A stretch of DNA of 64,000 nucleotides from an uncultured Chitinophaga sp. (lineage in GTDB: Bacteria; Bacteroidota; Bacteroidia; Chitinophagales; Chitinophagaceae). Shown here in pieces: positions 801 to 46,054 of this stretch. The stretch spans positions 189,430 to 253,429 of the forward strand of contig NZ_CAMLHC010000009.1 in the NCBI RefSeq assembly GCF_946479755.1, written 5' to 3'. How positions within the stretch are numbered: position 1 is the first letter of the stretch; every line of letters starts with the position of its first letter. The position numbers and the translations under genes were made by a program. The notes beneath the pieces are model-generated. The model did no database searches, had not been told where the DNA came from, and saw only the letters and a list, made by a program, of their open reading frames with translations.

Positions 801-843
801 GGGGTAAGGTTTTGGGGTACACTCTGGGGTACACTGGGGTACA
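801..843. repeat. GGGGTACA direct repeats next to tRNA-Arg(CCG)
   Basis: A GGGGTAAGGTT stretch is followed by three exact GGGGTACA copies at 814, 826 and 836. The first 17 bases are matched with one difference at 42737-42753, beside the other tRNA-Arg locus. Short direct repeats beside a tRNA 3' end are typical of tyrosine-recombinase arm sites, so this may be part of an attachment site. Confidence 0.5.
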
Positions 844-879
844 TTTTTACTTAATTCCCCTTTACTCCCCTTCACCGCT

Positions 880-947
880 CTTTCCTCCGAAACCCACGCC
901 CCTAAATGAAAAACGCCCAAACCTAGTAAAGCTAAGTTTGGGCGAAT
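880..947. repeat. 68-bp tRNA-Arg downstream repeat, copy 1
   Basis: These 68 bases align without gaps to 44033-44100, differing at about six positions. Both copies lie immediately downstream (to the left) of a minus-strand tRNA-Arg gene and contain its terminator hairpin. The similarity extends well past the hairpin. Confidence 0.75.
914..944 (-). terminator. Terminator of tRNA-Arg(CCG)
   Basis: A 13-base stem (one mismatch) around a 5-base loop, read on the minus strand, is followed by a run of T. It lies about 15 bases beyond the tRNA 3' end. Confidence 0.75.
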
Positions 948-958
948 TAATGTTTTGG

Positions 959-1030
959 TAGCCTCGTCAAGAATCGAACTTGAATCTGGAGCTTCGGAAA
1001 CTCTTATACTATCCATTGTACTACGAGGCC
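959..1030 (-). tRNA. tRNA-Arg (anticodon CCG)
   Basis: The minus strand folds as a cloverleaf. The acceptor stem GGCCTCG pairs with CGAGGCT. The D arm has the loop AATGGATA, the anticodon loop is TTCCGAA (anticodon CCG, codon CGG), and the T arm TCAAG/CTTGA carries the loop TTCGATT. The outermost anticodon-stem pair is A-C. A CCA end appears to be encoded (956-958). It differs in anticodon and stems from the tRNA-Arg(CCT) at 44112. Confidence 0.93.
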
Positions 1031-1078
1031 AAAAGGGAACGCGAAGTTACATTTTCTCCGGAATAATCCCAAATTACG

Positions 1079-41158: not shown

Positions 41159-41740
41159 TTAATTATCCTGGGTTACGGGCAATAGCCTGCCGTAGGCTGC
41201 CAGTACATGGTCTACTTTTCGCCGGTGCTCCGCACGTACCGCCTGCACGCTTTGCTGCCTTACATAGGCGCATAACCTGATAATTTCATCATCCAGTATA
41301 AACAAAACAATTTCAATCCGCAGCATCCTGTCCCATTGGGTAATGCCCGGGATATCGTCCGTGTCAGGACGCGAGCGGAGATCTTCCAGCATCAGCTGTT
41401 CAAACAATGCCGGATACAGCTTGTAAAGCACCGGCGCTGTGGGAGAGCTGCTCCGTTCTGTTTTCCGGATAGCTGCAGCCATGCGGGGCGATCGGATAAA
41501 ACTGCGGATACGCCTCCGGAGGCGGGACAGGAATTTAACCGCTGTCGTCTTTTTAAATTCAATACTGGCTTCCGTCAGGAACCGGATGATCACCTTGATA
41601 TGTAATTCCGATTTGAGGAGATGGTCGTCCATCGTAACGCCCTTGACCATTAAAATCTCGTCGGGCTTGGTGTGGTCCAGCAGGTAAGTTTTAAATAGTT
41701 CGGGGTTAGCCTGGTGTAGAGGTATTTCGGGACTGTTCAT
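41159..41740 (-). CDS. Hypothetical protein
   Basis: About 193 residues, mainly helical and rich in Arg, Leu and Ile, with a basic block (RLRRRIRSFIRSPRMAAAIRKTER). I recognise no domain, signal peptide or membrane helix, so it is probably cytoplasmic. I use the ATG at 41740 because the longer frame starts with TTG. It converges on the glycosyltransferase gene, with only nine bases between the stops. Confidence 0.65.
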   Translation of the reverse strand: MNSPEIPLHQANPELFKTYLLDHTKPDEILMVKGVTMDDHLLKSELHIKVIIRFLTEASIEFKKTTAVKFLSRLRRRIRSFIRSPRMAAAIRKTERSSSPTAPVLYKLYPALFEQLMLEDLRSRPDTDDIPGITQWDRMLRIEIVLFILDDEIIRLCAYVRQQSVQAVRAEHRRKVDHVLAAYGRLLPVTQDN

Positions 41741-41897
41741 AACAAATGTGTTTGGGGTCAATGAGCTGTTACTTATAGATACACGTTGGATACAGGATTT
41801 GTTCAGGGGTGTCGTTTTTTTGCCTACTTTAGGTAAACATTATATTCTTATTGTTGTCATTCCTTAACCGCTGCCATCAGGCGATAAACCAGTACCC

Positions 41898-42623
41898 ATG
41901 AATATTTTTCAGCTCATCGCAAGAAGCATTATCCGCAAGTCATTTCATCTGTCGGTATGGACCATTGAACAGTTTTATGATATCGCGGTATATGAAGAAA
42001 AAGCCCGGCAGCTGGACGAGTTGCCGGAAGGTACGTTAGGGAAAGACATTGCAGCGTGTCTGAAACGGAATGGTCTGCGGCTGGTGCCGGGATACGAGAG
42101 CCATGACTTAAAACATGTGCTCCTCGGTTTTAAAATGACGCCGGTAGATGAGATTCGGCTACAGGCATTTATGTTGGGTAATGGTAATCACACGTTGCCC
42201 AGCCTCGCGATATTTATTTTCGGGGCACTATTCCTGCCCGATCTGTGGCGCACGTTTTATAAGGACTACCAGGACGGCCGGCAGGCGAGGCCCGTCAGTT
42301 CCTGGACTATAGAAGACTACGCTCATTGTAACACCGCCGCATTGCGGGCGGCGGTCTTCCACTATGCCCCCGCAAAAAAGCAGCGTATTACCGCTGCGCG
42401 CATTGCACTGGCAGGAGCCTATACCGCCATTACACTGGGTACTTTGGGAATGCTTTATTGCCTGCCGTTTTTATTCTCTTCTTCCATGGAAGATTTGGTG
42501 GGCGCCGGATTTCCCTTTGTAGGCGGGGCGATGATGGCAGGTGCAGGCCTCGTGGCACTGTCTAATCTGGCCAATGGGAGCAGGAAGATACAGGTGTCTG
42601 CAGAAGCGCACATGCATCCATAA
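41898..42623 (+). CDS. Coq4-like protein with HDxxHx11E motif
   Basis: The 241-residue protein contains His69-Asp70-x-x-His73-x11-Glu85, the metal-binding motif of the Coq4 family, within YESHDLKHVLLGFKMTPVDEIRLQAFMLGNGN. Two hydrophobic helices lie in the C-terminal part (about residues 175-195 and 205-225). Coq4 is needed for ubiquinone synthesis in mitochondria, whereas Bacteroidota make menaquinone. This is therefore likely a family member with another lipid-related role. No quinone genes are adjacent. Confidence 0.75.
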   Translation: MNIFQLIARSIIRKSFHLSVWTIEQFYDIAVYEEKARQLDELPEGTLGKDIAACLKRNGLRLVPGYESHDLKHVLLGFKMTPVDEIRLQAFMLGNGNHTLPSLAIFIFGALFLPDLWRTFYKDYQDGRQARPVSSWTIEDYAHCNTAALRAAVFHYAPAKKQRITAARIALAGAYTAITLGTLGMLYCLPFLFSSSMEDLVGAGFPFVGGAMMAGAGLVALSNLANGSRKIQVSAEAHMHP

Positions 42624-42628
42624 AAAAA

Positions 42629-42649
42629 CGCCCAAGCTTAACTTGGGCG
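42629..42649 (-). terminator. Displaced tRNA terminator hairpin
   Basis: A perfect 8-base stem with a 5-base loop, followed on the minus strand by seven T, stands next to the tRNA-Arg 3' fragment at 42656-42678. It resembles the terminators at 914 and 44067 and is probably the original terminator of tRNA-Arg(CCT), separated from it by the island. Confidence 0.7.
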
Positions 42650-42655
42650 GGTTAT

Positions 42656-42678
42656 TTTTTTGTAGTCCCGACAGGGAT
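42656..42678. repeat. Displaced attachment-site repeat (tRNA-Arg 3' fragment)
   Basis: These 23 bases are identical to 44105-44127, which cover the last 16 bases of the tRNA-Arg(CCT) gene and the T run beyond it. The rest of the tRNA is missing here, as expected for the far end of an element that inserted into the tRNA 3' end. Confidence 0.82.
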
Positions 42679-42775
42679 AATGAACTGTGTCATAACCAGC
42701 TGGTAATTATATTTTTATACGTTATTGTTTTCGCTTGGGGTAAGGTTCTGGGGAATAGGTTAAGGTGCTGTTTTA

Positions 42776-42944
42776 TTTGAATAAAGCTCAATTGACACTG
42801 AAATAAAGCTCAAATGTGACTTGTTTTGAGCTTTAATTTATGTATTAGTGAGCTGTATTTGAATAGAGCTCAGTTGGAAGTCAAATAAAGCTCAAAAAGC
42901 GCTGTTAATGAGCTATATTTGATTATTCAACGAGCTACAAATGA
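42776..42944. repeat. Operator-like repeat array upstream of the Fic gene
   Basis: About eight copies, in both orientations, of a motif close to TGAGCTTTATTTGA (core GAGCT-x-AT-T) occur. They begin near 42776, 42798, 42825, 42848, 42861, 42880, 42908 and 42930. The -7-like element TATATTTG (42914-42921) lies inside one copy and the last copy reaches the ATG. Such a layout fits an autoregulatory binding site for the winged-helix domain of the Fic protein. Confidence 0.75.
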
Positions 42945-43984
42945 AATCGAACTTAATTGAACAGGAAATATTGGCATTTGTTAAAGCCAATCCCTCACAA
43001 TCATCCAAAGAAATATATGATGGGCTGGAAATAGAAGTGGGATATGCTACTGTTAAGCGGGTTTTAAATCAGCTCATTGAGGAAGAGCTTTTGACCACTG
43101 AGGGCAAAGGAAAGGCCACGAGATATTTGATAAGTCCATCCTATGAATTATTATACCCTATTGATGTAGAGACCTACTTTAAAAAAGAACAGGATGACCG
43201 AAAAATTAAGGGCAATTTTAATCTATCTCTTATCACCGATGTGCTTAGAAATGCAACACTGTTTACGGATAACGAACGGGAGTTACTTCACGCCCTTCAC
43301 GTAAAATTTAAGGAGAATATTGAGAGCCTATCTCCAACTGAATACAATAAGGAATTAGAACGACTTGCGATTGATCTTAGTTGGAAATCATCACAGATAG
43401 AAGGAAATACCTATTCTCTTTTAGAAACGGAGCGCTTACTAAAGGAAAAGGAAACGGCTGAGGGCAAACCTAAAGATGATGCAACAATGTTGCTGAATCA
43501 TAAGGATGCGCTGAATTTTATTATCGATAACCCCGATTATGTCGTGCCATTAACTGTTCGTGGCATAGAAGATATTCACAGCATCCTTATTAAAGACTTG
43601 GGTGTTGATCGCAATATCCGACAAAGAAGGGTCGGAATATCTGGCACAAATTATAAGCCCCTGGACAATGAACATCAAATCATGGATGCCTTGAATGATA
43701 TGTGTACATTAATCAATGCTAAAGAAGATGTATTTGAGAAATCACTGCTGGCGCTTGTTCTGTTATCCTATATACAAGCATTTGCAGACGGCAATAAAAG
43801 GACTGCCCGTATTATAAGCAATGCATTATTAATTGCACATCAGTACTGTCCGTTATCATTTCGGACGGTCGATTCGATTGAATATAAAAAAGCAATGTTG
43901 ATATTCTATGAACAAAATAATATTAGTGCCTTTAAGGAGATATTTATCGGACAATATGAATTTGCAGTAAATACCTACTTCTAA
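42941..43984 (+). CDS. Fic family protein with N-terminal winged helix; catalytic His replaced by Gln
   Basis: 347 residues. Residues about 1-65 look like a winged helix (SKEIYDGLEIEVGYATVKRVLNQLIEEELLTTEGKG). The SSQIEGN inhibitory motif (residues 150-156) is that of class II Fic proteins. The Fic core occupies about 200-330, with the active-site loop YIQAFADGNKRTAR (about 277-290). In the consensus HxFx(D/E)GN(G/K)R the His is here Gln279, while Phe281, Asp283, Gly284, Asn285 and Arg287 are kept. AMPylation normally needs that His, so activity is doubtful or altered. The gene is AT-rich and lies within the tRNA-flanked island, indicating horizontal origin. Confidence 0.9.
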   Translation: MKSNLIEQEILAFVKANPSQSSKEIYDGLEIEVGYATVKRVLNQLIEEELLTTEGKGKATRYLISPSYELLYPIDVETYFKKEQDDRKIKGNFNLSLITDVLRNATLFTDNERELLHALHVKFKENIESLSPTEYNKELERLAIDLSWKSSQIEGNTYSLLETERLLKEKETAEGKPKDDATMLLNHKDALNFIIDNPDYVVPLTVRGIEDIHSILIKDLGVDRNIRQRRVGISGTNYKPLDNEHQIMDALNDMCTLINAKEDVFEKSLLALVLLSYIQAFADGNKRTARIISNALLIAHQYCPLSFRTVDSIEYKKAMLIFYEQNNISAFKEIFIGQYEFAVNTYF

Positions 43985-44032
43985 GTATGAAGTATTATGT
44001 CCTCTGCCGGGTTTACGGTACAATGTTTCTCC

Positions 44033-44100
44033 CTTTCCTCCGAAACCCGTTTCCATAAATGAAAAACGCCCAAACTTAGTAAAGCTAAGTTTGGGCGAAT
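44033..44100. repeat. 68-bp tRNA-Arg downstream repeat, copy 2
   Basis: Gap-free match to 880-947 (about six differences). It lies between the Fic gene and tRNA-Arg(CCT) and includes the tRNA terminator at 44067-44097. Confidence 0.75.
44067..44097 (-). terminator. Terminator of tRNA-Arg(CCT)
   Basis: A perfect 13-base stem around a 5-base loop, read on the minus strand, is followed by a T run, 15 bases after the tRNA 3' end. Confidence 0.82.
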
Positions 44101-44104
44101 CATC

Positions 44105-44127
44105 TTTTTTGTAGTCCCGACAGGGAT
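44105..44127. repeat. tRNA-proximal attachment-site repeat
   Basis: This 23-base sequence covers the 3' end of tRNA-Arg(CCT) and matches 42656-42678 exactly. Here the tRNA is complete. Confidence 0.82.
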
Positions 44128-44183
44128 CGAACCTGTATCTAAAGTTTAGGAAACTTCTATTCTATCCATTGAACTACGGGACC
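44112..44183 (-). tRNA. tRNA-Arg (anticodon CCT)
   Basis: The minus strand forms a cloverleaf. The acceptor stem GGTCCCG pairs with CGGGACT, the anticodon loop is TTCCTAA (anticodon CCT, codon AGG), and the T arm ACAGG/CCTGT has the loop TTCGATC. No CCA is encoded after the discriminator A. It is complete; only its 3' fragment is duplicated at 42656. Confidence 0.95.
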
Positions 44184-44239: not shown

Positions 44240-46054
44240 TTAAAGACTTTCTATATCAACTTTTCCACCCGAAGGCGCATAAATATTGTCTATTTCCTTT
44301 TTGTACTTTTCGAGGATCACCTTCCGTTTGGCTTTCAGGGTGGGGGTGAGCTCTCCGGCGTCTACTGTCCATTCATGGGGCATTAGCTGGAACTTTTTGA
44401 CCTGTTCGATGTGATTGAAGAACTGGTTGTACTTATCCACGGTCTGTTTGTAGAGGTCCAGCACTTCCTGGCGCTTCAGCAGCTCCTCGTTGCTGCCGGC
44501 GGAAATACCCCTTTTCTGTGCCCAGCCGCGGAGGTTATCGAAGGAGGGCACGATCAGCGCTGCGGTGAACTTGCGGTCGTCGCCTACCACCATGATCTGT
44601 TCTATATAGGGAGACTCCTTGAATTTGTTTTCTATCGGCTGAGGGGCTACGAATTTGCCGCCGGAGGTTTTGAACAGCTCCTTTTTCCGGTCGGTGATTT
44701 TCAGGAATTTATGATCAATCAGTACGCCAATGTCGCCGGTGTGGAACCAGCCGTCGGTGATGGCGTCTGCGGTAAGGTCGGGGCGTTTGTAGTAGCCGAT
44801 GGTTACGCTGGGGCCTTTGCACAGTATCTCTCCGTCATCTGCAATTTTTACGTCTACATTGCTGATGACAGGACCTACGGTGCCGAACATACGGTCTTCT
44901 TCGTTGTAGCGGTTGACGCTGATAACGGGCGATGTTTCGGTAAGGCCATAACCTTCCAGGATGGGGATGCCGGCGGCGGTGAATATCTTCAGCAGCCTTA
45001 TCTGGCAGGCGGCGGCGCCGTTAACGATACATTGGATGTTGCCGCCGAGGGCTGCGCGCCATTTGCTGAAGATCAGCTTGTTGGCCAGTTTCAGCTGGAA
45101 GTTATACCAGAAGCCGGCGTTATGGTTGATTTCATAACGTTTGCCCAGGTCTACGGCCCAGAAAAACAGGGCGCGTTTAATGCCTTTCAGTTCAAGGCCG
45201 GTAGCCATGATCTTTTCGTACACTTTCTCCAGCAGCCGTGGTACGGTGGTGAAGATGGTCGGTTTGATCTCTCTTAGATTGTCGGCGATGGTATCCATCG
45301 TTTCGGCGTAATAGACGGGCACGCCGGCAGTCAGATAGAGATAGGTGACCATCCGCTCAAAGATGTGGTTGAGCGGCAGGAAACTGAGCGCACGGGCGTT
45401 TTGGTTGACCGGCAGGTAAGGCTGGCAGGCCAGCACGTTGCTCATCACGTTTTGATGGGTGAGCATGACACCCTTAGGCGTGCCGGTGGTACCGGAAGTA
45501 TAGATAATAGTTACCAGTTCTTCGGGAGATATGTTTTGCTGCACTTCTTCTATCAGCGGATAGTTGCTTTCGTCGGCCAGCGCCGGCACTTCAGACCAGT
45601 GGCGGGCGCCGGGCACCTGCTGGAAAGTGAAGATCTCCCGGATGGTGGGAAATTTATCCCGCGCAGCCAGTACTTTATCCAGCAGCTCCTGGTCGCTGAC
45701 AAACAGGATACGGGCTTCGGCGTCGTTGAGCACATATTCCAGCTCCTGCTGACTGATCGTAGGATAGATGGGGGTGAGCACGGCGCCGATCTGCTGGCAG
45801 GCGAGGTCGGTCAGCAGCCACTCCGGCCGGTTGGGCGAGATAATAGCGATCTTGTCTTTCTCCTCATTGGTTTTAACGCCTGCCCGGATACCCAGCTTCA
45901 GCAAGCCTGAGCTGAATTTGCGGGTAATGGCAGCTACTTCCTGTGTGCTGTATTTTCTCCATTGTCCGTTTTCCTTGCCGGTAAGCATATCCTCTCTGGG
46001 ATAGTTTTCCAGCTGATAAGGGATGACGTCGAATAGTCGCTGCGGTCGGTCCAT
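44240..46054 (-). CDS. Long-chain acyl-CoA synthetase (AMP-binding)
   Basis: 604 residues. The AMP-binding fold has the signature IIYTSGTTGTPKGVMLTHQ (about residue 190), then EGYGLTETSPVISVN, the hinge GWFHTGDIGVL and the lysine-bearing DRKKELFKTSGGKFVAPQPIENKF. All catalytic landmarks are present and the length is standard for bacterial FadD-like enzymes. It activates fatty acids to acyl-CoA for degradation or lipid synthesis at the membrane. It is followed (31 bases upstream on the same strand) by a 2TM-domain gene, but a metabolic link is not evident. Confidence 0.94.
   Translation of the reverse strand: MDRPQRLFDVIPYQLENYPREDMLTGKENGQWRKYSTQEVAAITRKFSSGLLKLGIRAGVKTNEEKDKIAIISPNRPEWLLTDLACQQIGAVLTPIYPTISQQELEYVLNDAEARILFVSDQELLDKVLAARDKFPTIREIFTFQQVPGARHWSEVPALADESNYPLIEEVQQNISPEELVTIIYTSGTTGTPKGVMLTHQNVMSNVLACQPYLPVNQNARALSFLPLNHIFERMVTYLYLTAGVPVYYAETMDTIADNLREIKPTIFTTVPRLLEKVYEKIMATGLELKGIKRALFFWAVDLGKRYEINHNAGFWYNFQLKLANKLIFSKWRAALGGNIQCIVNGAAACQIRLLKIFTAAGIPILEGYGLTETSPVISVNRYNEEDRMFGTVGPVISNVDVKIADDGEILCKGPSVTIGYYKRPDLTADAITDGWFHTGDIGVLIDHKFLKITDRKKELFKTSGGKFVAPQPIENKFKESPYIEQIMVVGDDRKFTAALIVPSFDNLRGWAQKRGISAGSNEELLKRQEVLDLYKQTVDKYNQFFNHIEQVKKFQLMPHEWTVDAGELTPTLKAKRKVILEKYKKEIDNIYAPSGGKVDIESL

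Follow-up and report, generated by a model that had tools for sequence, protein, structure and literature searches.

A 1.45-kb unit in the genome of an uncultured Chitinophaga sp., within the 64,000-nucleotide stretch of DNA analysed here (the window), is in our judgement, and with slightly better than even confidence, a single-gene, integrase-less cassette that arrived by recombination in the tail of the tRNA-Arg(CCT) gene and works like the cassettes that form arrays behind tRNA genes of its relatives. By the mechanism we propose, the cassette would have been placed behind tRNA-Arg(CCT) by site-specific recombination within the tRNA tail, and each such cassette would end in a copy of the tRNA tail and a terminator, an arrangement that leaves the tRNA whole and insulates transcription. 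The recombinase would act in trans, and would most likely be the tyrosine integrase of a parent element.

The tRNA-Arg(CCT) locus in the window and in related species

The intact tRNA-Arg(CCT) gene, the anchor of the unit, lies on the minus strand at 44111-44183 according to ARAGORN and at 44112-44183 according to Rfam (RF00005, 65.7 bits). Its tail and the T-run behind it form a 23-bp direct repeat, TTTTTTGTAGTCCCGACAGGGAT, whose two minus-strand copies at 44105-44127 and 42656-42678 are offset by 1449 bp and have no mismatch. The tRNA-proximal copy comprises 17 tRNA bases (ARAGORN) and six flanking ones; the distal copy, a tRNA tail without the remainder of the tRNA, has six flanking T residues and 16 or 17 tRNA bases, depending on whether the Rfam or the ARAGORN end is used (the initial annotation had given 16). 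These two are the only matches in the window at up to three mismatches, with 0.00 expected from 100 shuffles, and a longer form of the repeat extends over 46 bp at 85% identity, the perfect 23 bp included. Each copy is followed by a minus-strand terminator hairpin, at 44067-44097 behind the intact tRNA (-22.3 kcal/mol, z -6.8) and at 42629-42649 behind the distal copy (-15.1 kcal/mol, z -4.8; this one had been pointed out from the letters alone as a displaced terminator; the hairpin is real and may be that of the host). Both are of the GCCCAA..TTGGGC type, which is also found behind tRNA-Arg(CCT) in several other species. Between the repeat copies there is one substantial gene, which is intact (42941-43984) and has a G+C content of 35-39%; most flanking stretches have 50-55%, and 41500-42249 has 43-46%. 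Thus a repeat made of the 3' end of tRNA-Arg(CCT) does surround a single AT-rich gene, as the initial annotation had it. The unit is flanked by two host genes, a plus-strand gene with a Coq4-like match under the curated cut-off (41898-42623), which the window has in common with Chitinophaga eiseniae, and a minus-strand gene for an AMP-binding enzyme (44240-46054). An 18-base tRNA-tail pattern, with one mismatch allowed, occurs once in each of four of ten Chitinophaga genomes and in none of the other six (control 0). At a tRNA-Arg(CCG) gene elsewhere in the window (835-1031), the terminator and about 75 bp downstream are common to it and to tRNA-Arg(CCT) of two other loci, L041 and L001 (79-80% over 197 bp). 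Its best matches place the window in Chitinophaga, and the host is a soil bacterium.

The AMP-binding gene served as the synteny anchor for the collection of 80 loci, in 44 of which, nearly all titled Chitinophaga, it adjoins tRNA-Arg(CCT); at least 5 kb are in view behind the tRNA in 43 of these, and only 216 bp in L009. The content behind the tRNA differs between species, and the window's Fic gene is present in none of the 44 syntenic loci (all but L009 with 5 kb or more to examine). The nearest of the 80 loci is that of C. eiseniae DSM 22224 (L041), whose anchor protein is 96% identical and whose DNA is 93.7% identical over 9.1 kb. By blastn the homology between the window and L041 runs up to 44030 on the tRNA side and begins again from 42675 on the far side, so that the segment 42676-44029 is absent from L041. 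An exact 12-base search found a second, downstream copy of the tRNA tail in these two loci only, and in L041 the tail copies enclose 5.7 kb of different, partly broken genes, which is the other cargo between the same repeats that the initial annotation had proposed to look for in relatives. Because homology stops at 44030 and resumes at 42675 around other content, the content must have been inserted or exchanged since the common ancestor of the two. The initial annotation would have given up its reading if all relatives carried the same gene and repeat; none of the 44 has the gene, and the one with the repeat has other content. Its scar of site-specific integration stands as a scar of insertion or exchange at the 3' end of a tRNA gene, and site-specific recombination is what we infer from it. 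Judged from the sequence comparisons, DNA was inserted or exchanged at the window locus, and the tRNA site there is an active one.

Old vertical inheritance of a gene that lies beside the tRNA, with a repeat that arose by chance or is decayed, could draw on the wide distribution of this Fic family, which is present at E<=1e-100 in 35 of 395 genomes of the class. However, the absence of the gene from all 44 syntenic loci, a single match at E<=1e-20 in the C. eiseniae genome that is only 40% identical, and the chance expectation of 0.00 for the repeat make such a history extremely improbable. Two other observations were made at these loci: a short two-gene pair between the C. eiseniae tail copies (L041:11407-12008) looks toxin-antitoxin-like by eye, and in a Chitinophaga MAG the gene immediately after tRNA-Arg(CCT) encodes a different Fic protein, 30% identical (L038:9387-10442).

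An integrase that might recognise this site had been suggested as something to look for elsewhere, and in Chitinophaga dinghuensis (L015), alone among the 44 loci, the same tRNA is immediately followed by the gene of an intact tyrosine integrase (L015:9177-10448; 424 aa), whose domains are arm-binding, SAM-like and catalytic. The stretch (L015:9177-15142) also contains a DUF6371 gene; in L041 a broken relative of it, at 67% identity, comes first behind the tRNA. The L015 element is therefore likely, on this homology, to be a parent type of the broken content of L041, and the integrase together with the broken relative shows that integrase-bearing elements enter and decay at tRNA-Arg(CCT). No tail copy was found within the 6.9 kb in view in L015 (the best match has 13 of 20 bases). 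The window unit could likewise be what is left of a larger element that had an integrase of its own, like the one in C. dinghuensis, entered at tRNA-Arg(CCT) and kept only its ends and a useful gene. The intact integrase and DUF6371 gene behind the same tRNA in L015, the broken copy among other broken genes between the L041 tail copies, and the intact cargo and perfect repeat of the window all agree with this, and the L015 element makes such an origin somewhat more probable, and a cassette somewhat less so, than they would otherwise be. On the other hand, no further substantial gene or fragment is seen in the window unit, the part of L015 in view has no Fic gene of the window's family, and a small integrase-less format recurs in many arrays (below); we consider such an origin rather unlikely.

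The history could also have begun with an older duplication of tail and terminator, ancestral to the window and C. eiseniae, whose content was later replaced by homologous recombination with repeat-bearing donor DNA. The two loci have the far tail copy, its terminator and the gene before which it stands in common but not the content between, the bases just past the tRNA agree between the two copies within each genome (AAAAAA in the window, AAAAACG in L041), and the far copy of the window has none of the arm sequence described below. But a repeat of 46 bp at 85% identity, with 23 bp perfect, offers little sequence for a homologous exchange that brings in a foreign gene, and the first duplication is left unexplained. 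We regard this exchange as distinctly less probable than entry by recombination in the tRNA tail as a cassette, the reading followed here.

The HTH-Fic gene and its operator boxes

The plus-strand gene at 42941-43984 encodes a 347-aa protein with an N-terminal winged HTH, which is a match to the Pfam penicillinase repressor family (PF03965, 9.4e-7), and a Fic domain (PF02661, 6.9e-14). In alignment to FICD the protein reads QAFADGNKR at the position of HPFIDGNGR and retains SSQIEGN, a motif of the inhibitory type. All 120 homologues among the matches listed (8000 scored; the window protein is included) have Gln at the position of FICD's motif His, and 119 of the 120 have SSxIEGN. AMP transfer by the HTH-Fic protein seems doubtful. 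PADLOC matches the protein to SoFic (3.6e-20), of which a catalytic Fic histidine is a feature; this label should not be taken as a guide to the function of the protein.

The promoter region at 42721-42940 contains seven AGCTCA/TGAGCT boxes, a putative autoregulatory operator, and at 42914-42921 the sequence TATATTTG, a Bacteroidota -7 box. Boxes of the form GAGCY/RGCTC, three to ten in number, lie upstream of 18 of 21 members of the Fic family (window included), where 0-0.7 would be expected from gene interiors. The remaining three members have different repeated boxes together with changed recognition helices: AGCCCA with YTSLKR in L087, CGCTCA with IATLKR in L258, and ATGATC with YVTTKR (a helix found by eye) in L089. 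RGCTCA boxes with a YATxKR helix are the usual pairing in the comparison (window, L087, L088, L089 and L239-L258). L249, which has a YSTTKR helix yet ordinary boxes, is a counterexample to a strict code between helix and box. Helix and operator boxes tend to co-vary, possibly as a specificity code. Because of the upstream boxes and this co-variation, the HTH-Fic protein putatively binds its own promoter. In our reading the cargo is a self-regulated HTH-Fic protein and perhaps a stress or phage-defence regulator, any defence role being conjectural. As its recognition helix and its operator vary in step, it is well suited to direct biochemical testing.

Fic homologues at E<=1e-60 are present in 4 of 79 Chitinophaga genomes, and the Fic loci of 20 of the 35 Fic-bearing genomes of the class were examined. 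Among these 20 loci only L253 has both a tRNA and arm sites (see below): behind its tRNA-Arg(CCT) comes first a Fic gene whose product is 64% identical, then an arm site, then a RhuM/Fic gene and finally another arm site. The lineages of the window and of L253 thus have like cargo at the same tRNA, and nothing else ties the window more strongly to the arrays. L253 was in the training set of our second arm model (R2, below), whose scores there are not independent, but an earlier PWM had already found both sites. L256 abuts tRNA-Phe and has no arm; in 17 of the 20 loci there is no tRNA in the stretch examined, and the idea that the family is generally bound to tRNA genes was dropped. The Fic gene of L253 differs from that of the window in its orientation relative to the tRNA, so a fixed orientation relative to the tail was also abandoned. 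At L253:7914-8050 there is a longer 3' half of a tRNA-Arg, which starts at the anticodon loop; its upstream and terminator flanks resemble those of the next site, which suggests that the arm may derive from tRNA sequence. A viral contig (L259:5986-7023; IMGVR_UViG_3300036781_000817) encodes a 77% identical HTH-Fic homologue among genes that look phage-structural by eye.

Cassette arrays behind tRNA genes

In two Chitinophaga genomes, G069 and G046, Fic homologues of 74-75% identity lie within rows of short gene units that are parted by a degenerate repeat. The pattern of this repeat (at most two mismatches) gives one same-direction cluster in each of these genomes and is absent from eight others (control 0). 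At E<=1e-5 a 60-column sequence model built on 13 array sites (R1) detects sites in 19 of 79 Chitinophaga genomes, among them the two that had supplied the model. Thirty loci have such sites; 21 of them hold a tRNA, and all of these except L088, 20 in number, have one or more sites downstream of a tRNA on its own strand. For the array of G046, anchoring on a nearby tRNA-Arg(CCT) was considered and dropped, as that tRNA faces the other way. The other nine loci have no tRNA in view, and three of them are neighbours of other loci. The 20 anchors are tRNA-Glu in 17 cases, tRNA-Pro in two (L159, L165) and tRNA-Arg(CCT) in one (L164). The sites have a common layout, in which a fixed arm (AAATC..GTTCGA..TTGTCC) is followed by the tail of the local tRNA and, as a rule (by eye), by a terminator-like hairpin. 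GTTCGA is T-loop-like, and the distance from it to the end of the tail is usually 27 nt in the sites and 22 in the tRNA. Counting ties, the tRNA of the locus is the best fit for the 8-base tail in 42 of 44 sites, and 0 of 10,000 label shuffles reached the observed total; the 44 are the listed sites with an assigned tRNA, without four weak sites in the same loci and those of L088. Outside the 79 genomes the R1 arm is present in four more; L207 and L208 lie behind tRNA-Ser and have tails that follow it, and L205 and L206, which are training-site loci, have no tRNA in reach.

The sites are spaced at a median of 2.3 kb (28 intervals on 10 hand-listed contigs), with 23 of the 28 intervals at most 4 kb and the longest 17.9 kb. 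Different genomes have array proteins in common (24 pairs at >=50% identity over >=70% of their length). Among 100 array ORFs scanned (4 of 104, intron copies and overlaps, were left out), 11 are AAA_14/DUF4143 proteins (PADLOC candidate PDC-S01), three are Fic proteins and three are ADP-ribosylglycohydrolases, and the rest are mixed, including aldo/keto reductases, AraC regulators and hydrolases; these Pfam and PADLOC tallies cover the 25 commonest of 78 and 142 families. Different species thus have array cargo in common, and part of it is defence-like. In two loci of G046 (L088, L104) a group II intron-like reverse transcriptase is present in three near-identical copies, and each copy follows closely on the terminator of a site.

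For a further model, R2 (34 sites, 39 columns), only the arm was used; the tail was left out, and neither the window nor L041 contributed to it. R2 has matches at E<=0.003 in 88 of 394 genomes of the family, training genomes included. We took 40 new sites, mainly by rank outside the training loci, with about 9 kb on either side where the contig allowed; several genomes gave more than one, and two came from G400, which is also the source of a training site. A tRNA or tmRNA is in reach of 12 of the 40. It lies upstream on the same strand in 11 (from 10 genomes) and upstream on the other strand in one, an outcome with a chance of about 2 in a million if the four side and strand classes are equal and the sites independent. 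The tRNAs are Ser, Pro, Ala and Lys, and the tails match their own tRNA at 6.4 of 8 bases versus 5.0 after shuffling (0 of 5000 shuffles reached this). No tRNA lies in the stretch examined for the other 28 sites.

The initial annotation's statement that the island has no recombinase is borne out: queries from 30 tyrosine-integrase loci and the enzyme of L293 (E<=1e-3), 31 queries of which 30 matched another integrase (that of L191 did not), had no match anywhere in the window, nor in 34 array loci and six other loci. They did match in two of the 40 blind loci, L293 and L298, where the integrase starts at most about 400 bp from the arm site; that of L293 (9266-10273) has 335 aa and three integrase domains, and that of L298 is in two frames. 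Integrases of the array genomes G069 and G068 (L188, 366 aa; L194, 368 aa) have 33% identity to the one in L293, and these three are candidates, no more, for the enzyme that would act in trans. In seven array genomes PF00589 has 65 matches, none of them within the arrays by coordinates; judging by lengths and scores, two size classes of tyrosine recombinase (about 301-327 and 321-344 aa), which we take to be Xer-like, seem common to all seven. A serine recombinase as the mover was rejected, since PF00239 is present in six of the seven and so none is common to all. Viral contigs were also tried as a source of mobility; their two arm-pattern matches lie in near-identical DNA of two contigs, apparently coding by eye, and were put down to chance. 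L293:9003-12414 contains an arm site, the integrase, two Fic/DOC genes (the first with HPFIDGNGR) and an HTH-like gene, and is a possible parent element.

The window unit among known elements

The window unit shares with the arm-bearing cassettes a tRNA, a tail copy, terminators, a single-gene format and cargo, and like them it has few genes and no recombinase. Its distal copy has no match to the R1 or R2 arm (unfiltered, R2 finds only a 9-base fragment at -0.1 bits), and the left arm AAATC..GTTCGA, with the tail end 27 nt from GTTCGA, reaches only p 0.023 by PWM at the expected register. Because this copy is without the arm, we do not file the unit as an arm-bearing cassette, and say instead that it works like one. 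The far copy in L041 resembles the arm at p 2e-4 per position (PWM) and is the top R2 match of 6.1 kb there, a weak one (5.3 bits, E 0.26). The perfect repeat, the two terminators, the different allele in L041, the absence of the gene from the 44 syntenic loci, the integrase of L015, the Fic homologues in L253 and in the arrays of G069 and G046, the array tails that track their tRNAs, the blind test, the cargo common to different species and the array loci without integrase homology count for the cassette. The armless copy, the weak L041 arm score and decay at the same site (the L041 remnant) count against it, as do the 17 of 20 Fic loci and 28 of 40 blind sites that have no tRNA in view and the orientation of the L253 Fic gene. 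The initial annotation had offered movement in trans and a decayed element side by side; the former is favoured by the recurrence of integrase-less cassettes in arrays, and the latter by the broken remnant in L041.

More broadly, we entertain, at somewhat less than an even chance, an integron-like system in Chitinophagaceae and more distant Bacteroidia that would use the 3' ends of several tRNA isotypes as its acquisition site. Small cassettes, often with defence-like cargo, would carry a universal recombinase-binding arm and the tail of the local tRNA, restore tRNA and terminator, and be moved by a tyrosine integrase in trans (candidates L293, L188 and L194, and L015 for tRNA-Arg(CCT)); the HTH-Fic unit would be a one-cassette case with an eroded or divergent arm.

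Like a genomic island at a tRNA site, the window unit has an intact tRNA and a displaced 3' fragment that bound foreign DNA, but there is no integrase gene inside the island, the gene there being Fic. Integron cassette arrays are rows of small cassettes in the same orientation whose cargo is common to different arrays. The arrays described here are like them in their rows and shared cargo; integrons are marked by an IntI integrase and attI, whereas no tyrosine integrase was found in the window or the 34 array loci, and the sites here are tRNA-tail hybrids on a tRNA gene. The SoFic defence protein, as far as its description goes (PMC12249575), has the Fic domain in common with the window protein, which differs by Gln at the position of FICD's motif His and by its N-terminal winged HTH. 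Tycheposons are described as tRNA-linked cargo elements of 4-200 kbp with a tyrosine recombinase, xerD (PMC10872708); the window unit is tRNA-linked as well but has no tyrosine recombinase. The variable island fGI-2 of 'Ca. Methylopumilus' (Methylophilaceae), 330 bp to 42 kb in size, is recognised by repeated copies of the final 20 nucleotides of a tRNA-Lys gene (PMC10872708). Such additive islands resemble the arrays in their recurring tRNA tails; they belong to another phylum, and the passages that describe them do not mention a conserved arm.

The closest plan is that of the Dehalococcoides ssrA islands, which are described as lying in tandem behind a tRNA-like gene, with 20-bp copies of the ssrA 3' end as their bounds and a conserved 15-bp motif directly upstream of these copies (PMC3146451). 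In sixteen of the islands there is an integration module, to which a putative serine integrase belongs, and 15 have none and are called possible cis-mobilizable elements (CIMEs); all have the single target ssrA (PMC3146451). The arrays share with them the tandem units, the motif upstream of the repeats and the islands without a module, and differ, so far as that account describes the islands, in using several tRNA isotypes with one arm, and in their tRNA-tracking tails, mostly small cassettes and terminators; here a tyrosine integrase stands beside only 2 of 40 blind sites, whereas the Dehalococcoides modules hold a putative serine one. The window unit itself has the att-like flanking repeats of CIMEs and, like them as they are described (PMC3146451), no recombination or transfer genes; an integrase-bearing element at its tRNA is known only in another species (L015). 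Going by titles, in a search that left most subscription literature outside, we found no published description of arrays of this kind in Bacteroidota. Rows of small cassettes that follow tRNA genes, for the most part without moving machinery next to them, resemble a gene-collecting system hardly described before. If this is true, its searchable site would reveal small defence candidates and predict the locations of new ones, how one recombination arm serves many tRNA targets would become testable, and Bacteroidota would gain a cassette-gathering system comparable to integrons and anchored on tRNA genes.
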